This document shows positions 906 through 23,036 of a stretch of DNA of 39,455 nucleotides, piece by piece (within the stretch, counting starts at the first letter, position 1; the number at the start of each line of letters is the position of its first letter). The stretch is from Pseudomonadota bacterium. Its GTDB lineage: Bacteria > Pseudomonadota > Gammaproteobacteria > Burkholderiales > Burkholderiaceae_C. Location of the stretch: NCBI GenBank assembly GCA_018240985.1, contig JAFEER010000244.1:1-39455 (forward strand), written 5' to 3'. Position numbers and translations under genes: made by a program. The notes below the pieces were generated by a model that was given only the letters and a program-made list of their open reading frames with translations, was not told where the DNA came from and made no database searches.

Positions 906-1037
906 GCCGCGATCTCCCGAATACGAATGTTGCGCGAAATGCCCTGCAAACCTTTTGCAATGCGCGATTGTTTCAGGAGTCGCGCGCTGATGGCAAAGAT
1001 TGTCCTGGCGGGGCGCTGAGGCAGCGCGCCGCCACGC

Positions 1038-5745: not shown

Positions 5746-5753
5746 CCCTCCCC

Positions 5754-7610: not shown

Positions 7611-7658
7611 ACCGGTTTTGGTTTTTTTGACAGCGGGCAACCGCCGAAGGAGCTGATG

Positions 7659-8090
7659 ATGGCTTACGACGTAGCGCAACTGCTGGACATGACGCAGACC
7701 CAGCTCGACGATCTGTTCCGCGCCAGCCCTCCGGGCGACATTCCGGACGGCTCGGCCCAGGGCACGGCCATCATCGCGCCGGGCACCAAATACACCGAGA
7801 ACATCGCCCACATCATCAACATCTTCGGCTGGCAGGGCAAGGTGTTCGATGCGCAGAAGGGCGTGCTCAAGAACAAGGTTTCGCCCCTGGGCATCGAGGC
7901 CATCGTGGCGCGCGTCTACAAGGACAAAAGCTGGCTCGACGGCGCGGAATGCATCGTGCTGGACTACTCCAAAACCTCGCTGCTGGCGCACTACATCCGC
8001 GACGAAATCCGCCTCATCGATCCGGGCTTCTACCTGGGCAAGGTGTACTGGGGCAAGGACAGGCTGATCGACTTCTGCCTACGGTTCTGA
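7659..8090 (+). CDS. Conserved small protein of the redox operon, function unknown
   Basis: 143-aa soluble protein. It has an N-terminal helical stretch (AQLLDMTQTQLDDLFRAS), then mainly strands: IINIFGWQGKVFD, GIEAIVARVYKDKSWLDG, ECIVLDYSKTSLLAHYIRDE and GFYLGKVYWGKDRLIDFCLRF. The pattern of alternating strands ending in an aromatic strand suggests a small beta-barrel or lipocalin-like fold, possibly binding a hydrophobic ligand; this is inference. AAGGAG lies six bases upstream of ATG 7659 and three upstream of ATG 7656, so the second is preferred. It lies 48 bp after the GMC gene and 4 bp before the next gene, so it is co-transcribed. No signal peptide. Confidence 0.72.
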   Translation: MAYDVAQLLDMTQTQLDDLFRASPPGDIPDGSAQGTAIIAPGTKYTENIAHIINIFGWQGKVFDAQKGVLKNKVSPLGIEAIVARVYKDKSWLDGAECIVLDYSKTSLLAHYIRDEIRLIDPGFYLGKVYWGKDRLIDFCLRF

Positions 8091-8094
8091 AGCC

Positions 8095-9393
8095 GTGACG
8101 CCGCAATCGCATTTCATGGTGATTGCCCCGCTGGCCGCTGGCCGGGAAGCCGGCTTGCGTGCGCTGCTGCAGACCATGAACCTCAACCCCGGCATGGCCG
8201 ACCCGGCCGGCGCGCTGCTGCCGTTTGGCGCATTTGCACGGCTGCACTTTGCCCGCATGGTGCTGCTGGACGACGCGCTGCAGGCCGACCTGCAAGCCTA
8301 TGGCCTGCCGCGGCCGCAGCTGCCGACCTGCCTGGCCTTCATGGGCGACTGCGACGGCCCGGCGCGCAGCCTGCTGGCCGAGCTGGCACAGCAGGCGGGC
8401 GAAGGGCTGCGGCGCATCTTTGCCCATTGCGAGGGCTTTCGGGCCGACGGCGACCTGCTGGCCTGGATGCTGGTGCACGACAGGCCGCTGGCGGCCAGCT
8501 ATGTGAACTGGGTGGGGCGCAGCGTGCAGCAAATCCGGCAAGAGAGCGCCCTGCAGCGCGCGCTGTCGGCCCGGGTGGAGCGCGCGCCGCTGGCCAGCGG
8601 CGCAGAGGCGGTGCGCATGCACCAGGCGCTGCGCGCCTTCGTGGCGGACGAAACGCGCGCCGGCCGCCTGAGCCTGACACCGCCCGAGCCCACGCCGCTG
8701 GGCTGGCAGCTGGCAAAGCTGGTGCATTTGCTGCTCGTCCCGCTGATCGGCCTGCTGCTGCTGCCGCTGCTGATCGTGCTGCTGCCGCTGCTGATCTACC
8801 AGCTGCGCAGCCGCGAAAGCAGCGACCCCGAGAACTGCCCGCGGCCGCAGGCCGATGCGCTGCAGGCCCTGGAGGAGCTGGAGGATTACGACGTGAGCAA
8901 CCAGTACACCGCGCAGGGCCCGGTGAAGCCGGGGCTGTTCCGGCGCTGGCTGGTCACGGTGCTGCTGGTGCTGATCGACTATGCCTGCCGGCATGTGTTC
9001 ACGCACGGCTATCTGGCCCGGGTGCAGACCATACATTTCGCACGCTGGGCCTTCCTGGACGACAAGACCCGCGTGATCTTCACCAGCAACTACGACGGCA
9101 GCCACCAGGGCTATATGGACGACTTCATCAACAAGGTGGCCTGGGGCCTGAACCTGGTGTTCAGCAACGGCGTGGGCTGGCCGCGCACGCGCTGGCTGAT
9201 CCTGGGCGGGGCGCGCATCGAGCAGCGCTTCAAGTACTACCAGCGCCGGCACCAGCTCCCCACCCAGGTCTGGTACAAGGCCTATCCCGGCCTGAGCCTG
9301 GCCGATCTTCAGCGCAACCAGCGCATACGCGAGGGGCTGGAGCGCGCGCACCTGGATGAGGCGCAGGCGCAGGCCTGGCTGGGGCTGCTATGA
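8095..9393 (+). CDS. Membrane-anchored protein with duplicated HFAR domain, function unknown
   Basis: 432-aa protein with two related soluble halves joined by a strongly hydrophobic stretch (about residues 213-240, LLLVPLIGLLLLPLLIVLLP) and a weaker one near 282-300. Half one has HFARMVLLDD at 51-60, then LAFMGDCDG and an EGLRRIFAHCEGF helix; half two repeats the order as HFARWAFLDD at 314-323, IFTSNYDG and WGLNLVFSNGVGWP. The repeated strand-helix pattern suggests two ferredoxin-like (dimeric alpha-beta barrel) units, the fold class to which DyP peroxidases also belong. The start is a GTG four bases after the previous stop; ATG 8116 is the alternative. The 3' end overlaps the DyP start by 4 bp. 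It may tether the peroxidase or present substrate at the membrane; the function is unknown. Confidence 0.72.
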   Translation: MTPQSHFMVIAPLAAGREAGLRALLQTMNLNPGMADPAGALLPFGAFARLHFARMVLLDDALQADLQAYGLPRPQLPTCLAFMGDCDGPARSLLAELAQQAGEGLRRIFAHCEGFRADGDLLAWMLVHDRPLAASYVNWVGRSVQQIRQESALQRALSARVERAPLASGAEAVRMHQALRAFVADETRAGRLSLTPPEPTPLGWQLAKLVHLLLVPLIGLLLLPLLIVLLPLLIYQLRSRESSDPENCPRPQADALQALEELEDYDVSNQYTAQGPVKPGLFRRWLVTVLLVLIDYACRHVFTHGYLARVQTIHFARWAFLDDKTRVIFTSNYDGSHQGYMDDFINKVAWGLNLVFSNGVGWPRTRWLILGGARIEQRFKYYQRRHQLPTQVWYKAYPGLSLADLQRNQRIREGLERAHLDEAQAQAWLGLL

Positions 9394-10916
9394 GCACCGC
9401 ACCCGCACCCGCACCCGCCACGGCAGTGGAACTGGACGACATCCAGGGCCTGGTGCGCTTTGGCTACAAATACCACACGCAATCCTGTTTCTTGCTGCTG
9501 CGCGTCAAGGACTCCGGCGCGGCGCGCGCCTGGCTGGCCAGCGCGCCGGTGAGCAGCGCCGCCACGACCGCGTCGCCGCCGCCTACCGTGCTGCAACTGG
9601 CCCTGAGCAGCGAGGGCTTGCGCGCCCTGGGCGTGGCCGGCGACATCGTCGAGGCCTTCTCGGCGGATTTCGTGTCCGGCATGGGCAGCGAGCCCAGCCG
9701 CTCGCGCCGGCTGGGCGACATGGGCGCCAACGCGCCCGGCCAATGGCAATGGGGCACGGGCGCGCGCCTGCCGCATGTGCTGCTGCTACTGTACGCCTTG
9801 CCGGGCCGGCTGGACGAGTGGCAGCGCCAAATCGAAGCGCAATGCGCGGCGGGCTTCGACACGCTGGCCCGTCTGACCTGCGGCGACAGGCTGGGCTTCG
9901 AGCCCTTCGGCTTCGTTGACGGCCTTTCCCAGCCCCAGCCCGACTGGGGCCGCGAGCGCCCGGCGCTGGATGCCGAGCGGCCCGACTACGGCAACCTGAC
10001 CTGCCTGGGCGAGTTCTTGCTCGGCTACCCCAACGAATACGGCGGCTACACCGACCGCCCCCTGCTGGCGCCCGAGCGTGATGCCGGCTCGCTGCTGCCG
10101 CGTGCCGAGGACGCCCCCGAGCTGGCCGACCTGGGCCGCAACGGCAGCTACCTCGTGCTGCGCCAGCTGCAGCAGGACGTGCGGGGTTTCTGGCAATACC
10201 TGGATCGGCAGGCGGGCGGCGACCCGGCATTGCGCGAAAAGCTGGCCGCCGCCCTGGTCGGCCGCACGCTGCAGGGTGTGCCGCTGGAGCCGCTGGATCA
10301 GGCCGCGCCGCCGGCCGCCGACGCCGCGCCCGACCTGAATGCCTTCGACTACCAGGCCGATCCGCGCGGCACCCGCTGCCCGCTGGGCGCCCATGTGCGG
10401 CGCGCCAATCCGCGCAGCGCCGACCTGCCGCCGGGCGAGGCCGGCCTGCTGTCGTGGCTCAAGCGCACGCTGGGCTTCGACGCGCAGGCGCGCGGCCTGG
10501 ACCTGGTGGCATCCACCCGCTTTCACCGCCTGCTGCGCCGTGGGCGCGCCTATGGCGATGCCGTGCCGCCGGCACAGGCGCTGGCAGCTGCCTCCACTGG
10601 TGCCGACACCGGGCTGCACTTCATCTGCCTGGGCGCCAGCATCGCGCGCCAGTTCGAGTTCGTGCAGGCCGCCTGGCTCAATTCCACCCATTTCAACGGC
10701 CTGCAGAACGAGAGCGACCCGCTGCTGGGCACGCGGCTGCCCACGCCGGACGGGCAGGCCACCGACGGCTTTTCCATGCCGCAGGCGCAGGGCGCAGACC
10801 AGAAGCTCGCGGGGCTGCCGCAGTTCGTCACGGTGCGCGGTGGCGCCTATTTTTTCCTGCCCGGCATCCGCGCCCTGCGCTACCTGGCCGGCGCCGCCCA
10901 AGGAGGCTCACCATGA
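9390..10916 (+). CDS. DyP-type heme peroxidase
   Basis: 508-aa dye-decolorizing peroxidase. The hallmark GxxDG motif is GFVDG at residues 174-178 with the catalytic Asp177, and the proximal heme ligand is His335 in CPLGAHVRRANPR. The conserved Arg region FHRLLRRGRAYG follows at about 380. DyPs use hydrogen peroxide to oxidise dyes, phenolics, Mn(II) and other bulky substrates. Length and the extended loops between motifs fit the longer class C/D-like group rather than the ~310-aa class B enzymes. No Tat or Sec signal is seen, so the enzyme is cytoplasmic or held at the membrane by its neighbour. Its start overlaps the previous gene and its stop overlaps the next (ATGA both times), indicating coupled translation with the HFAR protein and the catalase-like protein. 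Confidence 0.92.
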   Translation: MSTAPAPAPATAVELDDIQGLVRFGYKYHTQSCFLLLRVKDSGAARAWLASAPVSSAATTASPPPTVLQLALSSEGLRALGVAGDIVEAFSADFVSGMGSEPSRSRRLGDMGANAPGQWQWGTGARLPHVLLLLYALPGRLDEWQRQIEAQCAAGFDTLARLTCGDRLGFEPFGFVDGLSQPQPDWGRERPALDAERPDYGNLTCLGEFLLGYPNEYGGYTDRPLLAPERDAGSLLPRAEDAPELADLGRNGSYLVLRQLQQDVRGFWQYLDRQAGGDPALREKLAAALVGRTLQGVPLEPLDQAAPPAADAAPDLNAFDYQADPRGTRCPLGAHVRRANPRSADLPPGEAGLLSWLKRTLGFDAQARGLDLVASTRFHRLLRRGRAYGDAVPPAQALAAASTGADTGLHFICLGASIARQFEFVQAAWLNSTHFNGLQNESDPLLGTRLPTPDGQATDGFSMPQAQGADQKLAGLPQFVTVRGGAYFFLPGIRALRYLAGAAQGGSP

Positions 10917-12139
10917 ACTCCAACACCAGCCGTCCGGTGCCGCCGGCCAACACCGGCTCGGCCCTGCTGAACTGGCTGTCCGACAGCCTGCTCGCGCTGG
11001 TTCAGCTGGAGCGCCGCTTCGACCCCTTCCTGCGCCCGGCCTTCGACGCGGTCTTGCGCGAGCCGCTGACGCGCCTGACCACGGCGCTGATCAACGCCCA
11101 GCGCCCCAACGAAGGGCTGAAGATCGCCGAGGAGCGGCTGCTGCCCGGAGAGGAGGAATTCGTCGACTCCATCATTTCCAGCTTCCAGCAGCAGATGCGC
11201 GGGCTGTGGAAGCCCGGCGGCTTCGAGCGCGGCGGCAACACCAAGACGCAGGGTGTGGTGCGCGCCGAGTTCATCGTGCATGAGGGCCTGCCGGCGGCAC
11301 TGCGCCACGGCATCTACGCCCAGCCGCGCAGCTACCCGGCCTGGGTGCGTTTTTCCGGCCCCGGCCCCTATGTCACGCCCGACATCGACGATGTGGGCTT
11401 CATGAGCATCAGCGTCAAGCTGATGGACGTCCCCGGCCCCAAGCTGATGGATGAGGAGCGCTTCACCCAGGACATGTTCGGCGTGTCGCCGCCCACCTTC
11501 GTCACGCCCGACGTGCGCGCCAACGCCCAGCTGCAGCAGGAAAGCCTGAAGAACGCGTCCATCTTCTACTTCCTCAATTTCCATAGGCCGCACCTGCTCG
11601 ACCTGGTCATGCAGGGGCTGTGGATCAAGACCCAGAGCAGCCCCTTCGAGGCGCCTTACTTCAGCTGCGTGCCCTACCTGCTGGGCGAGGGCCAGGCGAT
11701 GCAGTACTCCTTCTGGCCCAAGACCAGCAAGCGCACGCCCATTCCGCGCCTGCCGCTGCGCCCGCCCGACGACTACCTGCGCAATGCCATGGTCGCCGCG
11801 CTGGCGGAGGGCGATGTGGAGCTGGACGTGCGCCTGCAGCTGCAGACCGACCCCCACCTGATGCCGATTGAAAACGCCGCCGTGCTGTGGCCCGAACGCC
11901 TCTCGCCGCGCCTGTCGGCCGCCACCCTGCGCATGCCGCGCCAGAAGTTCGACTCCCAGGCGCAGATCGACTTCGCCCGGCGGCTTTCCTACAACCCCTG
12001 GCACAGCATTGCAGAGCACCGCCCGCTGGGCAACCAGAGCCGCGCCCGGCGGCGCATGTACCTGGAGCTGTCCAGGCTGCGGCACGAGATGAATGCCGTG
12101 CCCCACTTCGAGCCGACCGGCGACGAGGTGTTCGACTGA
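10913..12139 (+). CDS. Catalase-like heme protein, last gene of the redox operon
   Basis: 408-aa protein of the catalase-related group. The distal catalytic His is His123 in FIVHEGLP, equivalent to VHARG of catalases, followed by WVRFSG (catalase VRFS). DIDDVGFMSISVKL corresponds to the catalase region DPRGFAVKF. Near the end, RRLSYNPWHSIAEHRPLGN aligns with RLFSYPDTHRHRLG, giving the heme-ligand motif R356-x3-Y360. The catalase Asn after the VKF region is not evident (FGVSPPTFV). Proteins of this type include catalase-related enzymes that transform fatty-acid hydroperoxides instead of dismutating peroxide, which would suit this operon. GGAGG lies eight bases upstream and the start overlaps the DyP stop. 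No signal peptide. Confidence 0.85.
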   Translation: MNSNTSRPVPPANTGSALLNWLSDSLLALVQLERRFDPFLRPAFDAVLREPLTRLTTALINAQRPNEGLKIAEERLLPGEEEFVDSIISSFQQQMRGLWKPGGFERGGNTKTQGVVRAEFIVHEGLPAALRHGIYAQPRSYPAWVRFSGPGPYVTPDIDDVGFMSISVKLMDVPGPKLMDEERFTQDMFGVSPPTFVTPDVRANAQLQQESLKNASIFYFLNFHRPHLLDLVMQGLWIKTQSSPFEAPYFSCVPYLLGEGQAMQYSFWPKTSKRTPIPRLPLRPPDDYLRNAMVAALAEGDVELDVRLQLQTDPHLMPIENAAVLWPERLSPRLSAATLRMPRQKFDSQAQIDFARRLSYNPWHSIAEHRPLGNQSRARRRMYLELSRLRHEMNAVPHFEPTGDEVFD

Positions 12140-12201
12140 GCCACGGCACAAACGGCAGTGCTTAGGTGCGTTGGACAAGAGCGTCTCAATGGAGGTATTT
12201 A

Positions 12202-12303
12202 ATGCGTGCATTCAAACATGACGACGATGTGCGCAGTGCGCTGCAGGGCCAGGGCGTGAATGCCGACGCCGCCATGGCCCGCGTACAGGCCATGTCCGAC
12301 GCG
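12202..12303 (+). pseudogene. Fragment of a PA2779-like gene at the island's left edge
   Basis: About 34 codons starting at an ATG behind GGAGG read DDDVRSALQGQGVNADAAMA then RVQAMSDAG. This resembles the segment of PA2779-family proteins in which xxVxxxLxxxGVxxxxAxARVxALSD recurs. The similarity stops at about 12303, where the frame runs into the antisense 3' end of the helicase gene. No signal peptide or C-terminal membrane segment remains. I read it as a remnant truncated by insertion of the island, or a rearranged scrap; the short length limits confidence. Confidence 0.4.
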
Positions 12304-12305
12304 GG

Positions 12306-14510
12306 TCAGGGCCGACTATCAAAGGCCATCTGTCGCACCCACGCCAGCCCTTCATCCAAATCCAAGTACAGACTGGCATAGGCCTTGCACAGCAGCGCAT
12401 CCGGCAAGGCCCAGTCCCACTTCTCCCGTGCCAGATTCTTCACGTCCGCCAACAGGACGTCCAAAGGCGGCGTGTCGCTTGCAGCAATGTCCGCCAAGGC
12501 ATTCAGGATGTCCTGGGTGGAGTGCTCCCCCTTCACCACCTCGACCCCGGGGCCCGAAGGGAAGGCCACGAATCCGCGAGAAATCAGCAGGCAAGCAATT
12601 GCCTCGTTAGCTGCATCGCCCAGCCACGTCATGAGCATCAACTCTTTACCTTGGTCTAGGGCAAACTTCGACGCAAGCTGAAAGCGAGAGTACGCGGCAC
12701 GCGCTTCCGTCAAGAATCGCTGCGCCATCGCGTCCAGGAAAGCCAAGGAAGAGGTCTCCTCCAGCAATTCCCGCATCCGTTGGCGCACCTTCGTATGCGT
12801 GCGTCCGACCCCACCCGAGAACATCGGAGGAGCGCCGCCCTGGGCCCGGGTGACGTAGATGGCCTTCTGCTGCTCGTCCACTTCATCAACGTGCCAGGTT
12901 CGCCCTGCAAAAAGAATGCGCTGCCCCGGCAGCAGCATCTGGTCAACGGGAAGGGAACCCAGCGTTTTACCGCCCGCGACCACCCGAAACTCCTCTTCCG
13001 ATGCGAAGGCCGCATAGAAGCTGTAATGGTTCACGAACTTCTCGCCCACACGTCCGTGCAGGAGCGCTCCGGATGAGTCTTGGGTCAGCAGCTCTTTATG
13101 GCCCAGGTGCCGCAACAGGTCTACAAACTCCTGCTTCGAGAGGCCCGTGAAAGGGGCTCCCGGCCCGCACAAGAGCCCAAAAGCCTCGCCTGCCGTGACA
13201 CCACTGCGCTGGGCAATGGCCGAGAGCAGCTGCTGCACCAGCGTGGACAAGTGCACGCCCTGCACCCGGGGCGGCTCGAACCACTTGTCGATGAGCAGAG
13301 AAATCATGGCCGCCATCTGCACGGTATCCAGGCGCAACTTGTCTCGCAGACAGGAGCGGGTGCCTAGAGCATCCTCGACGCAGTAGCCGCGCAAAATCGC
13401 CGGCTCCCCCTTGCGTCGGCCGGAGCGGCCCAGGCGCTGACGCAGGCTCGCGACCGAGGGCGGAGGTCTAATCTGCGCCACGCACTTGACTGCGCCAATA
13501 TCGATGCCAAGCTCCAGGGTGTTGGTGCAGAGGGCGGTCGCGGGCAATTCCTTCTGCTTGAGGGCCGCCTCGGTCTCCGCACGAATTTCCTTGGAAAGGC
13601 TGCCGTGGTGAGGCCAGAACTCGTTGGGAACCCGCTCGCGTTCGCACATCTTGGTCAAAAGATGCGTGTATTGCTCCACTTGTCGCCGAGAGTTCGGGAA
13701 GACGAGATTGTTCGCGCCTCGAAGGACCTTGAAGAGATGCGCTGCCACCTGACCGGGCGTGACGGGTTCCGACTCTTCCTCCTCGTCGCTCCCAGACTTC
13801 ACCACCAAGGGCTCTTCATAGCCCTTTACGAGGACCTTGAGCTCCGTGCCCGCGGCCGCCGAATTGACCTGCGCGGGCTCCCCGCCCGGGCGCAGGAACT
13901 GCCCCGCAAGGCGCATATCGCCCAGGGTGGCCGAGAGGCCAATGCGGGGCACCTTCCGGTCTAAGGCGCGCTCGATGCGGTGCATCAGGGACTGCAGTTG
14001 CTTGCCGCGCTCCGAACCGATAAAGGCATGCAGCTCGTCAATCACGAAGAACGTAACGCGCTCGAAGACGGAGCCTACGGAGGACCCGCGGTTGCACAGG
14101 AGGGCCTCCAGTGATTCCGGGGTGATAAGAAGTACGCCATGGCGCTTGGTCAGAAAACGTGTTTTTACACTCGCCGATACATCCCCATGCCAGGGCCAGA
14201 CCGGAATCTCCAGCTGTGCGCACAGCCGCTCCAGCCGCCCAAACTGGTCGTTGATGAGGGCCTTGAGGGGGCTCACATAGACGATGAGGCCTTCGCCGTC
14301 TGCGGAGAGCAGGTGTGTGAGGGCCGGAAAAAACGCGGCCTCGGTCTTTCCTGCGGCGGTGGCCGCCGCGATGATGACGTCCTGCTCGGCCCCCACGATG
14401 AGCGGGATGGCCTTTTCCTGCGCGTCACGCAGCTCCTCCCAGCCTTCGGCCCAGATGAAGCGCTGAATGCGCTCATCCAGGAGATGAAACGAGGAGCTTT
14501 CGCCGGCCAT
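12306..14510 (-). CDS. Lhr/BrxHI-like DEAD/DEAH-box helicase
   Basis: 734-aa superfamily-2 helicase. Motif I is AATAAGKT at residues 49-56, motif Ia YVSPLKAL at 78-85, motif II DELH at 158-161, motif III SATLGD, and motif VI lies in LRQRLGRSGRRKG. After the two RecA-like lobes come a helical region and a C-terminal domain with WHVDEVDEQQKAIYV, a layout shared with Lhr-type helicases and the BrxHI helicase of type 2 BREX. It would translocate on DNA or remodel it with ATP. The ATG at 14510 has GAAGG five bases upstream and starts eight bases after the ATPase stop; longer starts would read back through the ATPase gene. It is the third gene of the TerB-ATPase-helicase unit. Its stop codon lies within a few bases of the left island junction. 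Confidence 0.88.
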   Translation of the reverse strand: MAGESSSFHLLDERIQRFIWAEGWEELRDAQEKAIPLIVGAEQDVIIAAATAAGKTEAAFFPALTHLLSADGEGLIVYVSPLKALINDQFGRLERLCAQLEIPVWPWHGDVSASVKTRFLTKRHGVLLITPESLEALLCNRGSSVGSVFERVTFFVIDELHAFIGSERGKQLQSLMHRIERALDRKVPRIGLSATLGDMRLAGQFLRPGGEPAQVNSAAAGTELKVLVKGYEEPLVVKSGSDEEEESEPVTPGQVAAHLFKVLRGANNLVFPNSRRQVEQYTHLLTKMCERERVPNEFWPHHGSLSKEIRAETEAALKQKELPATALCTNTLELGIDIGAVKCVAQIRPPPSVASLRQRLGRSGRRKGEPAILRGYCVEDALGTRSCLRDKLRLDTVQMAAMISLLIDKWFEPPRVQGVHLSTLVQQLLSAIAQRSGVTAGEAFGLLCGPGAPFTGLSKQEFVDLLRHLGHKELLTQDSSGALLHGRVGEKFVNHYSFYAAFASEEEFRVVAGGKTLGSLPVDQMLLPGQRILFAGRTWHVDEVDEQQKAIYVTRAQGGAPPMFSGGVGRTHTKVRQRMRELLEETSSLAFLDAMAQRFLTEARAAYSRFQLASKFALDQGKELMLMTWLGDAANEAIACLLISRGFVAFPSGPGVEVVKGEHSTQDILNALADIAASDTPPLDVLLADVKNLAREKWDWALPDALLCKAYASLYLDLDEGLAWVRQMAFDSRP

Positions 14511-14518
14511 GCGCGCCT

Positions 14519-15832
14519 TCAGAGCTTGAAGGATGCGAGCTCGTCGTCCTCGTCGACACGCAGGTCTGCGGCGCCCGCCGTGTCCGGGACAACCTCCAGC
14601 CCCCCCAGGAGCCGCTGCCAGTCCGTGCCTGGGTTCTGCTCCAGCACCGCCAGCATGTTCACGAAGGAAGTGATGGTTGTGCGCGGCGTGCGGAAGTAGG
14701 TGTCGCCGATACGGTTGGCGCAATGCTCCATGAAACTGAAGATGCCCTGGTCGGGCAGCAGGTGTTCGGTGGCGTCGCCCAGGGCGTAGACATGGCGAAT
14801 CTTTTGCAGCAGGACATAGAAGTCCTCCGGCGTCAGGCTGGAAAGTCGTACCACCGGCCCACTGAAGTCCACGAGGCCGTCCGCGGCGAAGGTGTTCTGG
14901 GAGAGCCGGCTTTGCAGGGCCGAGTAGCTGTAGAGGCCGCGGCGAGTATCGAGGAGGAACTCCGGTGTGCCGCCCAGAATGAAGCCCAACCCCACCGCCG
15001 TGCCCTGCAGCGAGTCGTTCAGGATGCGCAGAATCTGCTCGTAGTTGGAGTTGCGGGACTGGGCGTTGGCCAGCTTGTAGAGGTTGACCAGCTCATCGAG
15101 ATTCACCAACAGCCCAGAGAAACCCGCCAGCCGGACAAAGCGCGCCATCAGCTTGAGTTGGTCGAAGACCGCCGCGTCATCGACGATGGTGCGCACGCCC
15201 AGCGCCGCGCGGGCGTCTGTCTTGGTGCTGAACTCCCCGCGAAGCCAACGGATGGCATCCGCCTTGAGCTGCTCGTTGCCCTCCTCGAAGCCGCGGCAAT
15301 AGGCGGCGATGACATCGGCGAAGTCAAAGCCGTTAACGAGCTCCGTGAGATGCTCCAGTTTCTGGCGGATGACCGCCTCGATGGGCACGCCGGCAGCCTT
15401 AGCTTCCGCCTTGGCCGTGGCGATGAACTTCTCCACGATACCGCCGAGCGCTCCGCCGTCCGGCTTGGTGCGGGTGGCAATGTTGCGCATCAGCTCCGCG
15501 TACAGAGACCGGGCCTGGCCGCCACTGGCGTGCAGGCGGCGATCCGGGTTCAGGTCTGCGCTGGCCACCACGAGCTTCTTCTCCAAGGCAACGGCGCGCA
15601 CCAGGTTCAGAAAAAATGTTTTGCCGGCGCCGTACTCGCCAATGACCAGGCGAAATGTGGAGCCGCCGTCTGCAATCCTGTCGATGTCGCCGATGAGCGT
15701 CTCGATTTCCCGGGTGCGGCCTACCTGAATCAGGTGCTGCCCCGAACGGGGCACAACACCGGCACGAAGTGACTGAACGACCGCGTCCCGGTCTCTGGGG
15801 CGGATGGATGGGGCAGCAGCGGGGGCGTTCAT
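14519..15832 (-). CDS. BrxD-like P-loop ATPase (BREX ATP-binding family)
   Basis: 437-aa ATPase. Walker A is GEYGAGKT at residues 65-72 and Walker B is LLVNLDEL near 240-248; GGTPEFLLDTRRGLYSY and the region FADGLVDFSGPVVRLSSLTP follow, as in the ATP-binding proteins named BrxD in BREX systems. The region between the Walker motifs is long and helical (about residues 110-230), typical of this family. In type 2 BREX, brxD lies next to an Lhr-like helicase, as here. Its ATG overlaps the TerB-protein stop (ATGA, 15829-15832) and its own stop lies eight bases before the helicase start. It probably forms an oligomeric ATPase that loads or licenses the helicase. No methylase, PglZ or BrxL gene is present. 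Confidence 0.85.
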   Translation of the reverse strand: MNAPAAAPSIRPRDRDAVVQSLRAGVVPRSGQHLIQVGRTREIETLIGDIDRIADGGSTFRLVIGEYGAGKTFFLNLVRAVALEKKLVVASADLNPDRRLHASGGQARSLYAELMRNIATRTKPDGGALGGIVEKFIATAKAEAKAAGVPIEAVIRQKLEHLTELVNGFDFADVIAAYCRGFEEGNEQLKADAIRWLRGEFSTKTDARAALGVRTIVDDAAVFDQLKLMARFVRLAGFSGLLVNLDELVNLYKLANAQSRNSNYEQILRILNDSLQGTAVGLGFILGGTPEFLLDTRRGLYSYSALQSRLSQNTFAADGLVDFSGPVVRLSSLTPEDFYVLLQKIRHVYALGDATEHLLPDQGIFSFMEHCANRIGDTYFRTPRTTITSFVNMLAVLEQNPGTDWQRLLGGLEVVPDTAGAADLRVDEDDELASFKL

Positions 15833-18252
15833 GTGGGTTGACTCTCCAAGAGGTCTCGATTGATGGTGATGGGGTCGTCGCCCTCGGTCAGCGGGCCGTC
15901 ATGCGCATCGAACGCAGCCTCGTTGACGCGTTCCAGCGCGCCGTCGAGCATGAGGTCTAGGTCCGACGCCAGGTCGAGGAGTTCCTCGCGTGTCCACTGC
16001 GGCCGAGAGAGGAGCTGATGCACGAAGGCAGTATGCGCGGCATCCAGGCCCCGCAACCCCAAGGGGGCCTCGGGGAGGTGCTCTTCAGGCTCAGGCGCCG
16101 CAACAGCGGCGGGGGCAGGAGGCTGCGCCTCCACGGGTTCTTCGGTAAAGATATTGGACAGCAGTGCCGAGACCTTGTCCGTGTCGTGCTGCAGCGCCGC
16201 GATGCGGGCGGCGTCGAGTTGAAAACCAGCAGCTGCAGGCTTGGGCGCGATCGGAGATACGGTCTGAGCGGAAGGCGTGCCCGTGGGGGCGGCGGCCACC
16301 GCATGCACGTCCCCGAAAACCTTCTGGGGATCCACGCCCAATGCCTTGTAGACCTTCTCCAGCATCTTGATTTCTGTAGGCGAGACGGTTCCGTCCGCCT
16401 GGGCCACCGTCACCATGAACTTCGCGAGGGCCTCCTTCGCAGGCGCGGCAAGAGGTTCGAGCTTCTTCTTGAGCGATGCAAGCGAAGGCGGCACGGCCAT
16501 CAGGTATCGCATGTGCGCACGCAGCCGCTGCTGGTGCGCCGCCGTCAGGTGCGTCCAGCCTTCGATGTGCTGGCGCAGGTGCTTGAATTCCTCGGCCCCA
16601 AAGTCCCCATCCGCGCTGGCCACGGCAATGGCCAGTTGCACCGTCAGTGCGGCGGATTGGTAAGGGGCGCTGTTGCGGTTCACGCTCTCACCGGGAGGCA
16701 CGGAGAACAGGACCAAGGTCTCTTCGGGTTTGGGCGTCCTCGCGCCGTTGAGCACGTCCGGTTCCATGCCGACGTGGAGGCCCTCGAAAACGCGTGCCAA
16801 GCTGGTCACCGTGGCGCGCTCCAGACGCTGCGCTGTTCCCAGGCAAGCGGCTACCTCTTGCAGCTGCAAGGTCACCATCCCGTCGGCGATACGGGCCAGA
16901 AGCGCATCGAGCTTCTGCCGAGCATCGGAGGGCCATAGGTTGAGAGGTAGCAGGAGAAGGCCTTCAAGGGCATCGGCGGCCTCGGGAGAACGCCCCAGAA
17001 AGCGGCTGTAGGCATCCAACTCGCTGGTTGTGACATCCACTACCTCCTGAAGCTTCTCTACCGGCCCGGTGAGGACTGTCACATCCGGCGTGTCGCCGAA
17101 GGTTACCTTGATTTCTCCATGCGCCACGAGGGCGGCAGACGCCGCGCGGTAGAGGAATTTCAGTTTTGTCTTGTTTCTGGGAAGCACCAACCCGCCATTG
17201 AGCAGTGCGGCGTACCTCTCGTGAAACAGCTTCTCGAATTGTTCCGCGCAGCGCGTGGCGGGGGTTCGCAGGTAGATGTTCGGGTCTCTGCGCACCCAGG
17301 CGAGTGCTAGGGGTGCGGGGACCGGAACGTTGGCCATGGCGCACTGCCCCAGCGCCAGCCGCAGGTAGAGGGGGAGCTCGTAGCTGTCTGGAAACTCGGG
17401 CAGGGGCCGCGCGTAGAGCTTGTCCGAGTAGGTATTGAGCTCCACGACGGTGAGCAAATCGGTGGCGTACCGTTGGAACGAACCGCTTTGGCTGCCGTAG
17501 GTGCTCAAAAGCCTGCGAATCTCCTGCGCGATGGCCGGACGGTCTGCTTGAGCGGCCTTTGCCTCCTCTCCCTCGCCACTACCGTCAAGAATGACGCGAC
17601 GCTCCAGGCCGTAGAAAAACAGGAACACATAGCCGATGTCCGCCGTGGGGTCCTGGCGGCCCCCCGCCGACCATTGCAGGTAGGCCCGGCGGGCTTCGGG
17701 AGTGATGTCCGAGTAGCTGGGCCAATAGTCCATGCCGTTACGGTCACTGTAGTCGCCGCGTGCCGCCACCTTCTTGGACGGGTCAATGAGCGACGGGTCA
17801 GGTCGCCCTGACGGGGTGCGTAGCGAGGTTCCCACATAGACCAGGCCCCCGGGGATGACCGTATCCGCGATGGTGATGGGCTGACCCGAAGGAAGCCAAG
17901 TGGCGGCGCCATATCCCGCGGGAGGGGTTGGGACTTTGTGGCTGCGGGGAGCAGGCGCGTCGCGGTATACGGAGACGGGCTCCTGCGTTATTGACGCTTC
18001 TCGTTCGGCCACAGCCGTCCTGCGTGGCTCTGCCACGGGTGAAGCCTGGGAGAAAGCCCCAGAGGGAAGGGGCGTTGAACTCCAGGGCTTCTCCTTTTTG
18101 CTCTTGTTTTGACTGAAGATGTACACGGCAGCACCTATCGCGGCCACTATTGCCAAAGTAATCCAGACCGCTTTAGGAATCGAGGCCAGCAAGGCAACGG
18201 CTCCTATCAGCAATACGAGGCCGACGCCCCCTCCCCCTGATTTCTTCGCCAT
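15829..18252 (-). CDS. Membrane-anchored TerB-N/TerB/TerB-C domain protein
   Basis: 807-aa protein. Two N-terminal transmembrane helices (about residues 9-25 and 28-47) are followed by a low-complexity linker. A TerB-N-type domain covers roughly 120-330 (GGLVYVGTSL, YWPSYSDITPEARRAYLQW, IGYVFLFFYGLERRVI). A TerB-like helical domain lies near 530-635, with two acidic metal-binding-type motifs SADGDFGAEEF and QADGTVSPTEIKMLEKVY. A TerB-C end (REELLDLASDLDLMLDGAL, EGDDPITINRDLL) closes the protein. TerB domains are linked to membrane-associated stress and defence complexes; here the anchor would place the ATPase and helicase at the membrane. First gene of the three-gene unit, translationally coupled to the ATPase. 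It is not evidence of tellurite resistance, because no other ter genes are present. Confidence 0.85.
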   Translation of the reverse strand: MAKKSGGGGVGLVLLIGAVALLASIPKAVWITLAIVAAIGAAVYIFSQNKSKKEKPWSSTPLPSGAFSQASPVAEPRRTAVAEREASITQEPVSVYRDAPAPRSHKVPTPPAGYGAATWLPSGQPITIADTVIPGGLVYVGTSLRTPSGRPDPSLIDPSKKVAARGDYSDRNGMDYWPSYSDITPEARRAYLQWSAGGRQDPTADIGYVFLFFYGLERRVILDGSGEGEEAKAAQADRPAIAQEIRRLLSTYGSQSGSFQRYATDLLTVVELNTYSDKLYARPLPEFPDSYELPLYLRLALGQCAMANVPVPAPLALAWVRRDPNIYLRTPATRCAEQFEKLFHERYAALLNGGLVLPRNKTKLKFLYRAASAALVAHGEIKVTFGDTPDVTVLTGPVEKLQEVVDVTTSELDAYSRFLGRSPEAADALEGLLLLPLNLWPSDARQKLDALLARIADGMVTLQLQEVAACLGTAQRLERATVTSLARVFEGLHVGMEPDVLNGARTPKPEETLVLFSVPPGESVNRNSAPYQSAALTVQLAIAVASADGDFGAEEFKHLRQHIEGWTHLTAAHQQRLRAHMRYLMAVPPSLASLKKKLEPLAAPAKEALAKFMVTVAQADGTVSPTEIKMLEKVYKALGVDPQKVFGDVHAVAAAPTGTPSAQTVSPIAPKPAAAGFQLDAARIAALQHDTDKVSALLSNIFTEEPVEAQPPAPAAVAAPEPEEHLPEAPLGLRGLDAAHTAFVHQLLSRPQWTREELLDLASDLDLMLDGALERVNEAAFDAHDGPLTEGDDPITINRDLLESQPT

Positions 18253-18416
18253 TAGTCCATCCTTTTGGTTCGTGGCTTCTCGCCCGCATGACGCGGGAAC
18301 AACGCGACCGGTTCTGACGCAGGTGGGATGTTACCAATCGCATCAAGAAGACACGTCCGTGTAATCGCCATCCCCGATGTATAGCGCAGGCATCATGCCC
18401 GCAGAGGGGCATATGC
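18253..18416. promoter_or_regulatory. Upstream region of the TerB-ATPase-helicase unit, with a small dyad
   Basis: The 164 bp before the TerB-protein start is the only non-coding space that could hold the module's promoter. I found no convincing -35/-10 pair on the - strand. A small dyad ACACG-TC-CGTGT at 18351-18362 lies about 100 bp upstream of the start and could be an operator; with five-base arms it may also be chance. The right island junction must lie in or just beyond this stretch. Confidence 0.3.
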
Positions 18417-18604
18417 TTACGGCAAGACGTTAACGGGGGTGGTTTTGTCGGCCGTCGTGCCATCGCCGAGCTGGCCGTAGGTGTTACGGCCCCAGCACTT
18501 TGTGCCACCAGCCGCGGTCATCGCGCAGACGTGGGTGCCGTCACCCCCCCCCCCGTCGAGAGACTCACGACCTCTGCCTTGAGCCCAGTAACATCTACCG
18601 GAGA
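18417..18604 (-). pseudogene. RCC1-repeat protein fragment, frameshifted at an 11-base G tract
   Basis: On the - strand the sequence reads [20 protein letters not shown] in one frame and then [19 protein letters not shown] and [20 protein letters not shown] in another, ending at a TAA. Both pieces are consecutive halves of one RCC1 / alpha-tubulin-suppressor type repeat (VDVTGL...HVCAM...[16 protein letters not shown]). The frame break falls in a run of 11 G (18544-18554 as C on the + strand); 9 or 12 G would join the halves. The upstream part of the gene is missing, as the sequence passes into a ferric-reductase fragment near 18600. It is a remnant with no start. Confidence 0.65.
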
Positions 18605-18770
18605 ACGTCTGCGCACCACGGTGCCCGATTGGTTGCAGGCCGATGCCTGGTTCTGCGGCCCCGCCGCCTTTGGCGATGCGCTGGGCGAACACCTGGTAGC
18701 GTATGGCCTGGCGCCCGGCAACTTCCACAGCGAGCTGTCCAAGATGCGTTGGATGCTATATTGTTTATAG
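18597..18770 (+). pseudogene. C-terminal fragment of a ferric-reductase-like oxidoreductase
   Basis: About 50 codons read [20 protein letters not shown], then [17 protein letters not shown] and FHSELSKMR. This matches the end of the NAD(P)-binding domain of ferric-reductase-like / ferredoxin-NADP reductase proteins, where WFCGPxxF and a closing FHxELFxMR are typical. The frame then continues for seven extra codons into an interspersed repeat and stops. The transmembrane and FAD domains are absent and the upstream sequence is the unrelated RCC1 remnant on the other strand. Hence it is a broken gene end and not expressed as a working enzyme. Confidence 0.65.
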
Positions 18771-18812
18771 CCATAAGCAACTATCCATAAAGCATTAGAT
18801 CCATTTTTAAGC
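18754..18812 (+). repeat. AT-rich copy of the interspersed repeat
   Basis: TGCTATATTGTTTATAGCCA followed by TAAGCAACTATCCATAAAGC and ATTAGATCCATTTTTAAGC lines up with the repeat family described at 26588-26649 and 19959-20014, with many G/C to A/T changes. It separates the ferric-reductase remnant from the hemerythrin gene and supplies the last codons and stop of that remnant. Confidence 0.45.
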
Positions 18813-18818
18813 ATAAAA

Positions 18819-19325
18819 CTATCCACCCGCCTGCCCGGCCACGGGTTCATCGCAGCCCATGGCGCTGGCGCCGCCCCAGCCCTGCAGGGGCTCCTGCGGC
18901 AGCGCCTCGGGGTGGGCGATGTGGCCGCTGGCCGGGTCGAAGCCGACCTGGCGCAGGTGGTAGGCCAGGCCCGCGTCCATGGCGTCGATGTGATGCGGCA
19001 GCCACACGGCCAGCTCATTCGCCATCAGGCGCAGCTCGCCCAGGCGCCCCTGGCGCGCGCGCTCGGTGCCGCCCTGCATGATCTGCAGCACCTGCTGGTG
19101 TTGCGTGCTGTGGCAGTTGCCGGCGGCAAAGCGCGTGGCCTGCATCCAGGCGTCTTCCTGGGCGAAATGGGCCTCGGTGTGCGCCAGCAACTGCTCCCAG
19201 GCGGCCATGATGTGCTCGTCACTGGCGCCCTGCACGGCGCGCACCAGCGCCACCGATTCCTGGTGCGTGGCGTCCATCTGCGGCATGTCGATGCCCATGC
19301 CCTCAGACCATTGCATTTCGGCCAT
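18819..19325 (-). CDS. Bacteriohemerythrin
   Basis: 168-aa hemerythrin-domain protein. All seven di-iron ligands are visible: H21 (DATHQES), H53 and E57 (HFAQED), H72 and H76 (CHSTQH), H112 and D117 (HIDAMD). The domain occupies residues 1-125; a Gly/Pro/Ala-rich tail of about 40 residues with one Cys follows, and no signalling domain is attached. Such proteins bind oxygen reversibly or sense oxygen and NO in the cytoplasm. AGGAAA lies six bases before the ATG. It starts only 18 bp after the auxiliary lipoprotein of the lipid transporter, so it is probably the last gene of that operon, an unexpected partner. Confidence 0.9.
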   Translation of the reverse strand: MAEMQWSEGMGIDMPQMDATHQESVALVRAVQGASDEHIMAAWEQLLAHTEAHFAQEDAWMQATRFAAGNCHSTQHQQVLQIMQGGTERARQGRLGELRLMANELAVWLPHHIDAMDAGLAYHLRQVGFDPASGHIAHPEALPQEPLQGWGGASAMGCDEPVAGQAGG

Positions 19326-19343
19326 GGTGCATTTCCTTTCTTG

Positions 19344-20015
19344 TCAACGCCCTTGCTGGCGCAGCCAGTCGGCCAGCTCGTCGGCCACCTGCGCCGCGGC
19401 CAGGGCCAGCGCCTTGGCACCGCCGGCGGCATCGGGCGTGGCGGCGGGGCGCCGGGCCGTGAACAGCTGCTGCGCCACCACGGTCTCGCCGGTCATGCCG
19501 GCATCGGCCAGCACGACACGCAGGCGCAGCACGCCGCTGCTGGCGTTGGCAGCATCGAAGACCTGGCTGAACTCCTCCAGCTGCACGCGCAGCACGCCGG
19601 GCAGGCGCCCGTCCTTGGGTTTTTGCAAGGCGGCCTGGTTGGGCGAGAACACGATGCGCTCGCGCGCCAGGCGCTCGCGCAGTGCCTGCTGCACCAGGGC
19701 CGCCGGCGGCTGGCTCCAGCGCGCCAGGCTGTAGGGGCGCAGCTCTTGCGCGTTGGCGTAGGCCAGGCGGTACTGCAGGGCCTGGCGGCCATCATGGATG
19801 TCGGGCGCATCCACCAGCACCAATGGCGGCAGGGCCATACCTTGAGGTGCGGGCGCCGCCGGCACGGCGCCAGGGCCGAAGTCGTACACGGTGGCGCGCT
19901 GGGGTGGCTCGGGCAGGGCGGAGCAGCCCGCAAGCAGCGCCAGAAATATCGAGCCATACAAGGCTTTTGCGCCCGTCTGGCAAGCGCGAGCAGCTATTTT
20001 TTTGATAGTTTTCAT
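19344..20015 (-). CDS. ABC-type transport auxiliary lipoprotein (PqiC-like) of the MCE transporter
   Basis: 223-aa lipoprotein with signal MKTIKKIAARACQTG and lipobox LLAGC, then a PqiC/YmbA-like domain: YDFGP, PPLVLVDAPDIHDGRQALQY, LARWSQPPAALVQQALRERL and VLRVQLEEFSQVFD. Such proteins assist MCE transporters at the inner face of the outer membrane, probably in lipid passage across the periplasm. The start at 20015 is chosen because AGAGG lies six bases upstream; ATG 20036 would overlap the MCE stop but lacks a ribosome site. The first ~17 codons coincide with an interspersed repeat copy (19959-20014), so the signal peptide is repeat-derived. Fourth gene of the operon. Confidence 0.85.
   Translation of the reverse strand: MKTIKKIAARACQTGAKALYGSIFLALLAGCSALPEPPQRATVYDFGPGAVPAAPAPQGMALPPLVLVDAPDIHDGRQALQYRLAYANAQELRPYSLARWSQPPAALVQQALRERLARERIVFSPNQAALQKPKDGRLPGVLRVQLEEFSQVFDAANASSGVLRLRVVLADAGMTGETVVAQQLFTARRPAATPDAAGGAKALALAAAQVADELADWLRQQGR
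19959..20014 (-). repeat. Interspersed repeat copy inside the lipoprotein signal-peptide codons
   Basis: Read on the - strand the copy is AAAACTATCAAAAAAATAGC followed by TGCTCGCGCTTGCCAGACGG and GCGCAAAAGCCTTG. This is a close match to the family core (ATAGCTGCTNGCGCTT ... GCGC) and is the least decayed copy in the window. It encodes KTIKKIAARACQTGAKAL of the auxiliary lipoprotein. Confidence 0.7.
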
Positions 20016-20035
20016 GGCCATCCTCTGCTGTTCCA

Positions 20036-21013
20036 TCAGGGTTGCGCCGCCGGTGCCGCAAAACCGGGCTCGCCCGGCCCGGCCGCGCCACGGCCGGGGC
20101 CGTAGATGAGCGCCTGCGGGTTGTCGCTGATGCCGCTGGCGGTGCGGCCCAGGCGGCGCGCCGCCTGCGCGGCCTCGTCGGCGGCGATGTTCACGCGCGG
20201 CAGGGTGACTCGGCCAAAGCGATCCACGGCCACGGCCAGCGACTGGGTGCTGGTGCGGATATCGGTCAGCAGCCCGTCATCGGCCTGCAGCGCACGCAAG
20301 ACGCCGCGCACCTCGTCGGCCGCGCCGGCGGTGCTGGCGCCGGCCTGGCGCAGCGCCCGCAGGCTCTGCTGCGCGTCCTGCGTCAGGGCGGGCAGGCCGG
20401 CCAGGGCCGGATCGAGGCGGGTAGCGACGGTGTTGTCCAGACGCTGCACCAGCCGGTTCATGCTGGTTGCGGCCGCGCCCAGCTGCCGCAGTGCGGTGCC
20501 GAAGCTCTGCTGGTTCTCGTCCCCCAGCAAGCTGCCCAGGCGTGCCATGACGTCCTGCACCTGGCCCATGATGGCCGGCCCCTGCTCGGCGATCTGGCTG
20601 AGGGGCGAGCTTTGCAGCGGCAGCCGCGGCAGGCCGTCCGGGCCGCGCGGCAGCGGGGGCAGCGCCGTGCCGGCATCGTCGAGCTGCACATGGGCCAGCC
20701 CGGTCACGCCCTGGTAGCCCAGGGTGGCAAAGGTGGTGGGGCTGATGGGGGCGTCGGTGTTCACGGCGATGCGGATCAGCACGTTGCCCGAGGCCTGCGG
20801 GTCGAAGCCGATGGATCTGACCTTGCCCACGGCCACGCCCTTGTAGCGCACCGCCGCCTGGGGCTGCAGGCCGCTCACGCTTTCCTTGCTCGACAGCTCG
20901 TAGAGCCGATAGTCGGTCTGGTCGCGCGTGAGCCACATGGCCAGGCCCGCCAGCAGCGCCGCCACGATGATCACGAACAGGCCCGCGGCCAGGGCATGGG
21001 ACTTGTTTTCCAT
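20036..21013 (-). CDS. MlaD/MCE-family lipid-binding protein
   Basis: 325-aa MCE protein with one N-terminal transmembrane helix (about residues 9-29, LAAGLFVIIVAALLAGLAMWL in part) and one MCE domain at about 40-120: YRLYELSSKESVSGLQPQAA, VRYKGVAVGKVRSIGF and GYQGVTGLAHVQL. The rest is a long helical region that in this family builds a tube or needle in the periplasm. It is the substrate-binding subunit that moves phospholipid or another hydrophobic compound between membranes. Its ATG overlaps the ATPase stop by one base (TGATG-type junction), and its own stop sits immediately before the lipoprotein. Similar to Mla/Pqi components, but the single-MCE, lipoprotein-partnered layout does not contain mlaC, so I give no mla symbol. 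Confidence 0.9.
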   Translation of the reverse strand: MENKSHALAAGLFVIIVAALLAGLAMWLTRDQTDYRLYELSSKESVSGLQPQAAVRYKGVAVGKVRSIGFDPQASGNVLIRIAVNTDAPISPTTFATLGYQGVTGLAHVQLDDAGTALPPLPRGPDGLPRLPLQSSPLSQIAEQGPAIMGQVQDVMARLGSLLGDENQQSFGTALRQLGAAATSMNRLVQRLDNTVATRLDPALAGLPALTQDAQQSLRALRQAGASTAGAADEVRGVLRALQADDGLLTDIRTSTQSLAVAVDRFGRVTLPRVNIAADEAAQAARRLGRTASGISDNPQALIYGPGRGAAGPGEPGFAAPAAQP

Positions 21014-21813
21014 CAGGCCTCCTTGAGCGGGGCGGCGGCGCCCGGCGGCGGCGCCATGGCGCGTTGGCCGCGCCCCCCGGAAAAATAATGTTGGATGAAG
21101 GGGTGGTCGAACTGCGCCACCTGCTGCGGCGTGCCGGTGGTGATGACGCGCCGATCCGCCAGCACCGCCACGCGCGTGGACAGGGCAAACAGCGTATCCA
21201 GGTCATGCGTGACCATGATCACCGTGAGGCCCAGGGCCGCGTGCAGCTCGCGCAGCAGGTCGCAGAATTCGTCCGCGCTGTTCGGATCCAGCCCTGCCGT
21301 GGGTTCGTCCAGCAGCAGCAGCGGCGGATCCATGATGAGCGCACGCGCCAGGGCCGCGCGCTTGACCATGCCGCCCGACAGGTTGGCCGGCATGCGCGTG
21401 GCGTGCTCGGGCTTCAGGCCCGCCAGCTGCAGCTTGACCATGGCGGCGTCATCGACGAGCGCTGGCGGCAGCGTGCCCAGCTCGCGCAGCGCGAAGGCAA
21501 TGTTGTCCAGCACGTTGAAGGCCGAGTACAGCGCGCCCTGCTGAAACAGCATGCCGACGCGGGCGCTGGCGCCCTCGCCCATCATCTCGGCCGCGGGCCG
21601 GCCCAGCACCGTCACGCTGCCGCGCGTCGGTTGCGTCAGGCCCAGGATATGGCGCAGGAGCACCGTCTTGCCCGTGCCCGAGCCGCCGACGAGCGACAAA
21701 ATCTCCCCGCGCTTCACGCTCAGCTGCAGGTTCTCGTGCACGGTGAAGGCGGCGTCGCCCTGGCCAAACACGGTGGCCAGGTCGCGGATCTCAACCACGT
21801 TGTCGGTATCCAT
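21013..21813 (-). CDS. MCE-type ABC transporter ATP-binding protein (MlaF-like)
   Basis: 266-aa ABC ATPase. Walker A is GGSGTGKT at residues 43-50, the signature is LSGGMVKRAALARAL, Walker B is LLLLDEPTAGLDP and the switch His is in VTHDLDT. The methionine and lysine in LSGGMVKR are typical of MlaF/Ttg2A-type ATPases that energise lipid transport. It lies three bases after the permease stop and overlaps the MCE gene. It acts on the cytoplasmic face as a dimer with two permease subunits. The C-terminal ~20 residues (GRGQRAMAPPPGAAAPLKEA) are an unstructured extension. Confidence 0.93.
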   Translation of the reverse strand: MDTDNVVEIRDLATVFGQGDAAFTVHENLQLSVKRGEILSLVGGSGTGKTVLLRHILGLTQPTRGSVTVLGRPAAEMMGEGASARVGMLFQQGALYSAFNVLDNIAFALRELGTLPPALVDDAAMVKLQLAGLKPEHATRMPANLSGGMVKRAALARALIMDPPLLLLDEPTAGLDPNSADEFCDLLRELHAALGLTVIMVTHDLDTLFALSTRVAVLADRRVITTGTPQQVAQFDHPFIQHYFSGGRGQRAMAPPPGAAAPLKEA

Positions 21814-21816
21814 GGC

Positions 21817-22935
21817 TCAGAACCCCACGCTGCGGAAGGCCACGGCGAACACAGCGTCCACGATGATGACCATGGTGATGGCGCTGACCACCGAGGCCGT
21901 CGTGCCCTCGCCCAGGCTCTGCGTGTTGGGCTTGACGCGCAGGCCCCAATGGCAGCCGATGAGCGCAATGAACACGCCGAACACCACCGATTTGCCCATG
22001 GCCAGCCACAGGTTGGAGACCCTGACCGCGGCCGGCAGCATCTGCACGAAATAGGCCGATGACACGCCCATGGTCAAGTCGGCCGCCAGCATGCCGCCGG
22101 CCAGCGCCGCCAGCGTGGTCCACAGCGCGATCAGCGGCATCGCCAGGCCGAGCGCGATGGCACGCGGCATCACCAGGCGAAAACCGTGCGGGATGCCCAT
22201 GACGCGCATGGCGTCGAGCTCCTCGGTCACGCGCATCACGCCGATCTGCGCCGTGATGGCCGAGCCCGAGCGCCCCGCCACCAGGATGGCGCCGAGCATG
22301 GGCCCGAGCTCGCGGATCAGCGAGATGCCGAGGATGTTGACGATGAAGGCCTCGGCGCCGAACTGGCGCAGCTGCAGGCTCATCAGATAGGCCAGCACCA
22401 CGCCAATCAGAAAACCCACCAGGGCCGTGATGGGCAGGGCGCGCGCGCCCATCTGGTAGAGGTGGCCGGAGATGTCGCGCCAGGGCGCGCGCAGCGGGTT
22501 GCGCGCCAGGCGCAGCAAGTCGAGCACCAGTTGGCCTATGAGCAGCACCAGGCGGCGCCCATGGTCGAGCCCATGCAGCACCAACTCGCCCAGGTGATCC
22601 ACCTGATCGGACAGGCGCCATGGGGCCGGGGCAGCGGCGGGGACGGAAAACTGCGCCACACGCTCGAGCATCTCGCGCTGGGCCGCGCTGAGCTCGACCT
22701 GCGCCGGCCAGGCCTGGCCCCAGTGGTTCCAGAGGATTTGCGCCCCCACATGGTCGAGCTTCCCCACGCCCTGCAGGCTCCAGGCATGGCCACTGGCGCA
22801 GGCCTTGAGCTGCCCGGACAGCAAGCGCCAGGCGCTGCGCTCGGCAAACGCGGCCGCCACCCAGTCGCCCTGCAGCAGCGCGCGGGGCTCTACCTGGCCG
22901 TCTTGCGTGACCGAGGGCGGGGTGAGAGTGGACAT
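21817..22935 (-). CDS. MlaE-family ABC permease with N-terminal STAS domain
   Basis: 372-aa protein. Residues 1-100 form a STAS-like domain (RLLSGQLKAC, WSLQGVGKLDHVGAQILWNH), comparable to MlaB fused to the permease. Residues ~120-372 are the MlaE/YrbE permease, with the conserved segments MGARALPITALVGFLIGVVL, ELGPMLGAILVAGRSGSAIT and EELDAMRVMGI. With the ATPase and MCE protein encoded downstream it forms the inner-membrane lipid transporter; fusion makes a separate MlaB gene unnecessary. First gene of the operon. The ATG shown has no clear ribosome site upstream, but the STAS domain begins close after it. Direction of lipid movement cannot be deduced. Confidence 0.92.
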   Translation of the reverse strand: MSTLTPPSVTQDGQVEPRALLQGDWVAAAFAERSAWRLLSGQLKACASGHAWSLQGVGKLDHVGAQILWNHWGQAWPAQVELSAAQREMLERVAQFSVPAAAPAPWRLSDQVDHLGELVLHGLDHGRRLVLLIGQLVLDLLRLARNPLRAPWRDISGHLYQMGARALPITALVGFLIGVVLAYLMSLQLRQFGAEAFIVNILGISLIRELGPMLGAILVAGRSGSAITAQIGVMRVTEELDAMRVMGIPHGFRLVMPRAIALGLAMPLIALWTTLAALAGGMLAADLTMGVSSAYFVQMLPAAVRVSNLWLAMGKSVVFGVFIALIGCHWGLRVKPNTQSLGEGTTASVVSAITMVIIVDAVFAVAFRSVGF

Positions 22936-23036
22936 GTGGTGTTGGCTGTCAAAAAGTGCGACAAGTGCGGCACATCATTTCACACAATGCGCACGGTCAT
23001 GGTCACCAATGTGAAAAATGCATCAAGACAGCTTGA

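Follow-up and report, generated by a model that had tools for sequence, protein, structure and literature searches.

A TerB protein, ATPase and helicase operon from a Burkholderiales bacterium matches the Shango anti-phage system

A compact operon of three minus-strand genes lies at positions 12306–18252 of contig JAFEER010000244.1 (assembly GCA_018240985.1, Burkholderiaceae_C), raising the question of whether it constitutes a new defence system or one already described. An initial annotation of the window, i.e. the entire 39,455-nucleotide stretch analysed, had proposed a candidate phage-defence module built from a TerB protein, a BrxD-like ATPase and an Lhr-like helicase. All three open reading frames are present at the positions given in Table 1. 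The three proteins were scored against 5027 PADLOC models, and in each case the best model was that of Shango (366 bits for SngA, 601 bits for SngB and 893 bits for SngC). SngA gives the weakest of the three matches, with residues 80–803 aligning to 24–521 of the 528 model positions, and it matches the SngA model alone, with no BREX model matching. The features that define Shango were all found: SngA contains TerB_N, TerB and TerB_C domains, SngB an intact Walker A motif and SngC is a DEAD/DEAH helicase, while the three genes are adjacent on one strand in the order A-B-C. The block is almost certainly a complete Shango operon, sngABC.

Shango has already been named and phage-tested in other bacteria, and the operon described here is not a new system; the original E. 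coli paper is reportedly that of Millman and others, 2022. The Shango system of Pseudomonas aeruginosa PA14 is described as a TerB-like protein, an ATPase and a DEAD/DEAH helicase. When present in PAO1 it lowered the plating of many phages by 10–100-fold, with some tested phages unaffected, and it also shielded liquid cultures (PMC10250203). The E. coli report, as cited there, concerned ~10-fold effects on two phages. The suggested role in phage defence was thus in the right field, the operon corresponding to a system phage-tested elsewhere (PMC10250203), while the claim of novelty falls with the PADLOC identification of a known, named system of identical composition. Judged from its sequence, the present copy is likely to act in phage defence. 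Reading of the raw sequence did recover a genuine defence operon, one already named and phage-assayed.

Table 1 Coordinates of the sngABC genes, selected regions of SngA and features of the right flank
Feature	Position	Strand	Evidence
sngA: TerB_N / TerB / TerB_C protein, 807 aa	15829..18252	(-)	PADLOC, Pfam
sngB: BrxC/BrxD-type ATPase, 437 aa	14519..15832	(-)	PADLOC, Pfam, NCBIfam, motifs
sngC: Lhr-like SF2 helicase, probably 734 aa	12306..14510	(-)	PADLOC, Foldseek, motifs
Two predicted membrane helices of SngA, residues 7-50	18103..18234	(-)	Hydropathy peaks; predicted helices 10-23, 27-50
TerB domain of SngA, residues 538-644, with two 'ADG....E'-like acidic motifs	16321..16641	(-)	Pfam, conservation
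Truncated fragment, resembles end of RCC1-repeat protein	18417..18556	(-)	Translation
3' tail of gene intact in same-genus L099	18597..18752	(+)	blastn to L099, L101, 81% identity from 18597; frames

As the initial annotation had noted, the genes overlap or lie within 8 bp of each other. A 4 bp overlap (ATGA) joins sngA and sngB, and with ATG 14510 taken as the sngC start, 8 bp lie between this gene and the sngB stop. In the sngC frame, codons 1 to 90 offer no start codon besides this ATG and the listed TTG at 14723. The TTG is unlikely to be used, because it would place 71 extra residues within sngB; the true start is probably the ATG and the helicase is 734 aa rather than 805 aa long. The GC content of the operon is 63.3%, compared to 68.1% and 67.0% for the parts of the window to the left and right respectively, which bears out the lower-GC block described earlier, the difference being modest.

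The Pfam matches of SngA are to TerB_N (206 bits), TerB_C (123 bits) and TerB (54 bits). Together with the hydropathy peaks and predicted helices (Table 1), these agree with the proposed two-helix membrane-anchored TerB-N/TerB/TerB-C protein. A hydrophobic segment occurs within the first 100 residues of 64 of the 77 SngA proteins compared, with two segments in 49 and none in 13, counts that rest on mechanically chosen start codons. A putative N-terminal membrane anchor is therefore usual among SngA proteins; the 13 proteins devoid of a segment may indicate that the anchor is dispensable or may have wrongly assigned starts. The TerB domain binds metal, and the acidic residues of its two motifs in SngA are nearly invariant across 51 sequences (D548, E555 and D620 in 49/51 each, E627 in 51/51). 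The predicted SngA structure has a mean pLDDT of 81.8, and its best Foldseek matches, 2h5n and 2ou3, correspond in size to about a single TerB domain, with E values of 5.6e-3 and weaker. The sequence profile matched no solved structure at E 0.01, and the Foldseek search of the model gave none beyond the TerB domain. No nuclease was found in SngA, where every credible structural match is of TerB type and none reaches an E value of 0.001 (the best being 5.6e-3); a hidden nuclease may have escaped this search.

SngB matches the Pfam family BrxC_BrxD with 508 bits, and contains a Walker A motif (GEYGAGKT) at residue 65 and a DE motif at residue 246. The Walker A motif is kept in all 80 SngB relatives, and no solved structure was matched by sequence at E 0.01. 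In the source genome, PF10923 (BrxC/BrxD) exceeds its cut-off at this locus only.

SngC contains the DEAD and Helicase_C Pfam domains and the helicase motifs GKT, DELH, SAT and QRLGRSGR. Its sequence profile has helicase 5v9x as best solved match, and the predicted model (pLDDT 85.6) likewise has this structure, the Lhr helicase of M. smegmatis, as top Foldseek hit (TM 0.66/0.63, 21% identity, over an alignment of 819 columns including gaps for 734 and 772 residues). The predicted fold is hence closest to Lhr, as the initial annotation had it. No nuclease domain was seen in SngC by Pfam or by Foldseek, the best 50 of 1750 Foldseek rows all being helicases or helicase-bearing complexes. Among 78 SngC proteins with a strong hit, the GKT, DExH and SAT motifs are kept in 77, the exception being locus L060, where the matching frame begins late; motif VI is kept in 75, and the three exceptions (L020, L046 and L086) are short or cut helicase frames. 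SngC, BrxHI, DruE and DpdJ have been grouped as defence helicases of a single, perhaps separate clade (PMC12278908).

A genome scan found 269 stretches encoding SngB relatives, of which the best 80 were kept. All three genes occur on the same strand in the order A-B-C in 76 of these 80 loci, a locus being counted as complete with SngA >300 bits and SngB and SngC >200 bits each; in some of the 76 the helicase runs off a contig end, and in L060 it seems to be broken. The incomplete loci include L044 and L070, which end in or before sngC, and L085, where the sngA frame is broken. The fourth, L035 from a Hydrogenophaga MAG, encodes sngB and sngC and no full sngA, with a TerB_C-only ORF (11449–12759) between the two genes, and is possibly a reduced Shango variant as judged from these frames. 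In L028 (Rubrivivax MAG), a Schlafen/AlbA_2 ORF (11315–12481) lies between sngB and sngC. L004, which had no plus-strand hits, was left out of the locus analysis; its coordinates fit those of L048. The short contigs L019 and L020 are labelled Armatimonadota and Saccharibacteria and carry almost the same operon, with SngB proteins 98% identical to that of the window. The other close relatives of the operon are mostly from Proteobacteria, and these two contigs are probably mis-binned.

At E 1e-30, SngB was detected in 2 of 99 genomes, the window's own and G037. Matches to SngB occur in 682 plasmid records, 540 of which are typed conjugative (449 of the 682 are from Klebsiella and 144 from Salmonella), and among the matches listed the Klebsiella and Salmonella proteins have ~58–59% identity. 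The lowest plasmid match listed has 29% identity and is annotated as a BREX ATP-binding protein, so some of the 682 matches are not Shango. The full triple was found on both plasmid loci examined (L103 and L104, one from Klebsiella and one from Salmonella, typed conjugative). That SngB relatives are found in hundreds of plasmid records from enterobacteria is relevant to the spread of defence systems. A phage-borne system was also considered and rejected after a search of 50,697 phage records yielded nothing for SngB at E 1e-10.

To place the operon among defence genes, up to two ORFs on each side were collected for 77 of the 80 loci (282 ORFs), from which 146 were drawn at random, ORFs >900 aa being left out and 73 loci represented. 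These 146 ORFs matched 120 PADLOC families at E 1e-15, a count of families rather than proteins, as several families can match one protein. The 25 of 120 families listed include Gabija, JetA, STK/PP2C, reverse-transcriptase and AbiEii models. Among the 73 control ORFs, mad3 was the only family matched, with two members; it is also found in two Shango neighbours and hence is uninformative. The controls are few, come from other genomes and are partly duplicate (L099, L101 and L010 overlap in content), with ORFs called mechanically, and the defence-type neighbours are thus taken as support rather than as a measured enrichment. A Pfam scan of the 146 neighbours is led by EAL, GGDEF and GAF domains (four each), therefore many neighbours are not defence genes. 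In the window itself, the 88 other ORFs of at least 130 aa, shadow ORFs included, gave PADLOC matches at E 1e-10 to mad3, mad2, mad8 and AriA, one member each. The mad3 model matches control ORFs as well, and we take all four to be housekeeping look-alikes. Gabija, JetA and AbiE-type models are matched near other Shango loci; among the 88 ORFs of the window, no other convincing defence gene and thus no defence island was seen.

The broken genes said to flank the block are borne out on the right. Of a gene that L099 carries intact (8082–9431), with a presumably reductase-like product, only the 3' end is left in the window, and next to it lies a truncated fragment that we take to resemble RCC1 repeats. 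A run of ~12 C at about 18545–18560, near this fragment, could be a weak spot of assembly or sequencing. On the left there is just a short ORF fragment (~12202–12309) of uncertain origin. Same-genus G003 and G006 are 81–86% identical to the window from 18597 onward, and in G003 the intact gene of which the window retains the tail ends there. In G002, window stretches 218–906 and 18847–22936 lie only 51 bp apart (L100 positions 7550 and 7602), therefore the whole of 907–18846 is missing there. The operon is located at the right edge of this 18-kb block absent in G002, an edge at which G003 has different genes. The 25 of 37 Pfam families listed for the window are metabolic, cell-wall, Mla and regulatory, with no integrase or transposase among them. 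Among four regions compared, 8881–12140 matches G072 only. This region encodes a protein that weakly matches DyP peroxidases in Pfam and, at 10880–12139, a 419-aa protein with no Pfam match, which of 39 genomes only its own and G072 have.

The resemblance to BREX calls for an alternative, namely that the ATPase–helicase pair is what remains of a type 2 BREX system in degenerate or minimal form, a brxD–brxHI pair that survived loss of the other genes. The BrxD and BrxHI models do match SngB (155 bits) and SngC (383 bits), in line with the similarity remarked upon initially and with the Pfam result for SngB, and in type 2 BREX the two proteins occur as a tight dyad (PMC12839542). However, both PADLOC scores are far below those of the Shango models, and the NCBIfam BrxD model gives SngB only 152 bits, under its curated equivalog cut-off of 350. 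No PglX, PglZ, BrxC or PglW was found beside the pair, and no BREX model matched any of the 88 other window ORFs, confirming the reported absence of BREX partners. Furthermore, the TerB partner is retained in the same order in 76 of the best 80 of 269 loci, which points to a stable unit and no remnant. The remnant reading was rejected on the model scores and the conserved three-gene unit, and we consider its probability negligible. It is also very improbable that the operon serves DNA repair or tellurite/metal stress instead of defence. Lhr helicases act in DNA repair, TerB is named after tellurite resistance, and the window holds no other convincing defence gene among its 88 other ORFs, all of which would fit such a function. 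Against this, the distribution is patchy (the two genomes of 99 include the window's own), SngB relatives are frequent on plasmids, the majority of these typed conjugative, other Shango loci have defence-type neighbours, and the same triple is phage-protective in published work (PMC10250203).

With Shango as the preferred identity, the remaining question is how the operon might act. In a 2026 review the mechanism of Shango is entered as 'Unknown' (PMC12926258), and no mechanistic study was found in the open-licence literature naming Shango. A 2026 BREX survey assigns BrxD to the ORC/Cdc6-type AAA+ ATPases, describes winged-helix, beta-barrel and Lhr-type C-terminal DNA-binding parts in the helicase BrxHI, and suggests that the first may serve to load or activate the second (PMC12839542). 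Since SngB and SngC are homologous to BrxD and BrxHI, this division of labour is our first choice. By analogy, we tentatively propose that SngB, as an AAA+ ATPase of the BrxC/D family, would oligomerise and so load the Lhr-type DNA translocase SngC onto phage DNA or activate it there. The N-terminal helices of SngA would keep this protein at the inner membrane, its TerB domain acting as a metal-sensing gate that tethers or gates SngB–SngC. Incoming or replicating phage DNA would then be stripped or unwound, and phage multiplication would fall. A more specific and rather doubtful version has SngA as a membrane-anchored metal-responsive switch, whose TerB acidic motifs might read divalent ions or membrane disturbance as phage DNA enters and release an Lhr-type helicase that SngB loads on this DNA; if true, Shango would be a helicase-only defence without a nuclease, active at the injection site. 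It is similarly unlikely that SngA itself acts as effector, for instance as a membrane disruptor set free once SngB–SngC meet phage DNA, with abortive infection as the outcome. The frequent N-terminal hydrophobic segment (64/77 loci) and the lack of a recognised nuclease in SngA or SngC by Pfam and Foldseek favour such a role, whereas the two short helices presumably resemble an anchor and not a pore, and are missing in 13 of the 77 proteins. Concrete residues with which to probe the Shango mechanism are provided by the commonly present anchor, the TerB motifs with their conservation, and the predicted Lhr fold.

Comparison to known systems places the operon closest to published Shango. The domain set is the same as in PA14, the three genes are adjacent, and the best PADLOC model for each protein is that of Shango. 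Identities were obtained with the copy of P. aeruginosa PA7 (L092), which is different from the phage-tested PA14 copy, and amount to 43% for SngA, 76% for SngB and 56% for SngC over the best tblastn segment. Type 2 BREX has a homologous ATPase and Lhr-like SF2 helicase encoded by adjacent genes, as in SngB–SngC, but here a TerB_N/TerB/TerB_C partner replaces the BREX partners and the BREX scores are well below those of Shango. Unlike Lhr helicases, SngC belongs to a three-gene operon with SngA and SngB. A TerB domain or homologue is common to Shango and two other defence systems, Bunzi and Dionysus, a likeness drawn from their descriptions; TerB is listed for both Shango and Bunzi (PMC10952713). 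Relative to published Shango, the present copy differs in sequence distance only.
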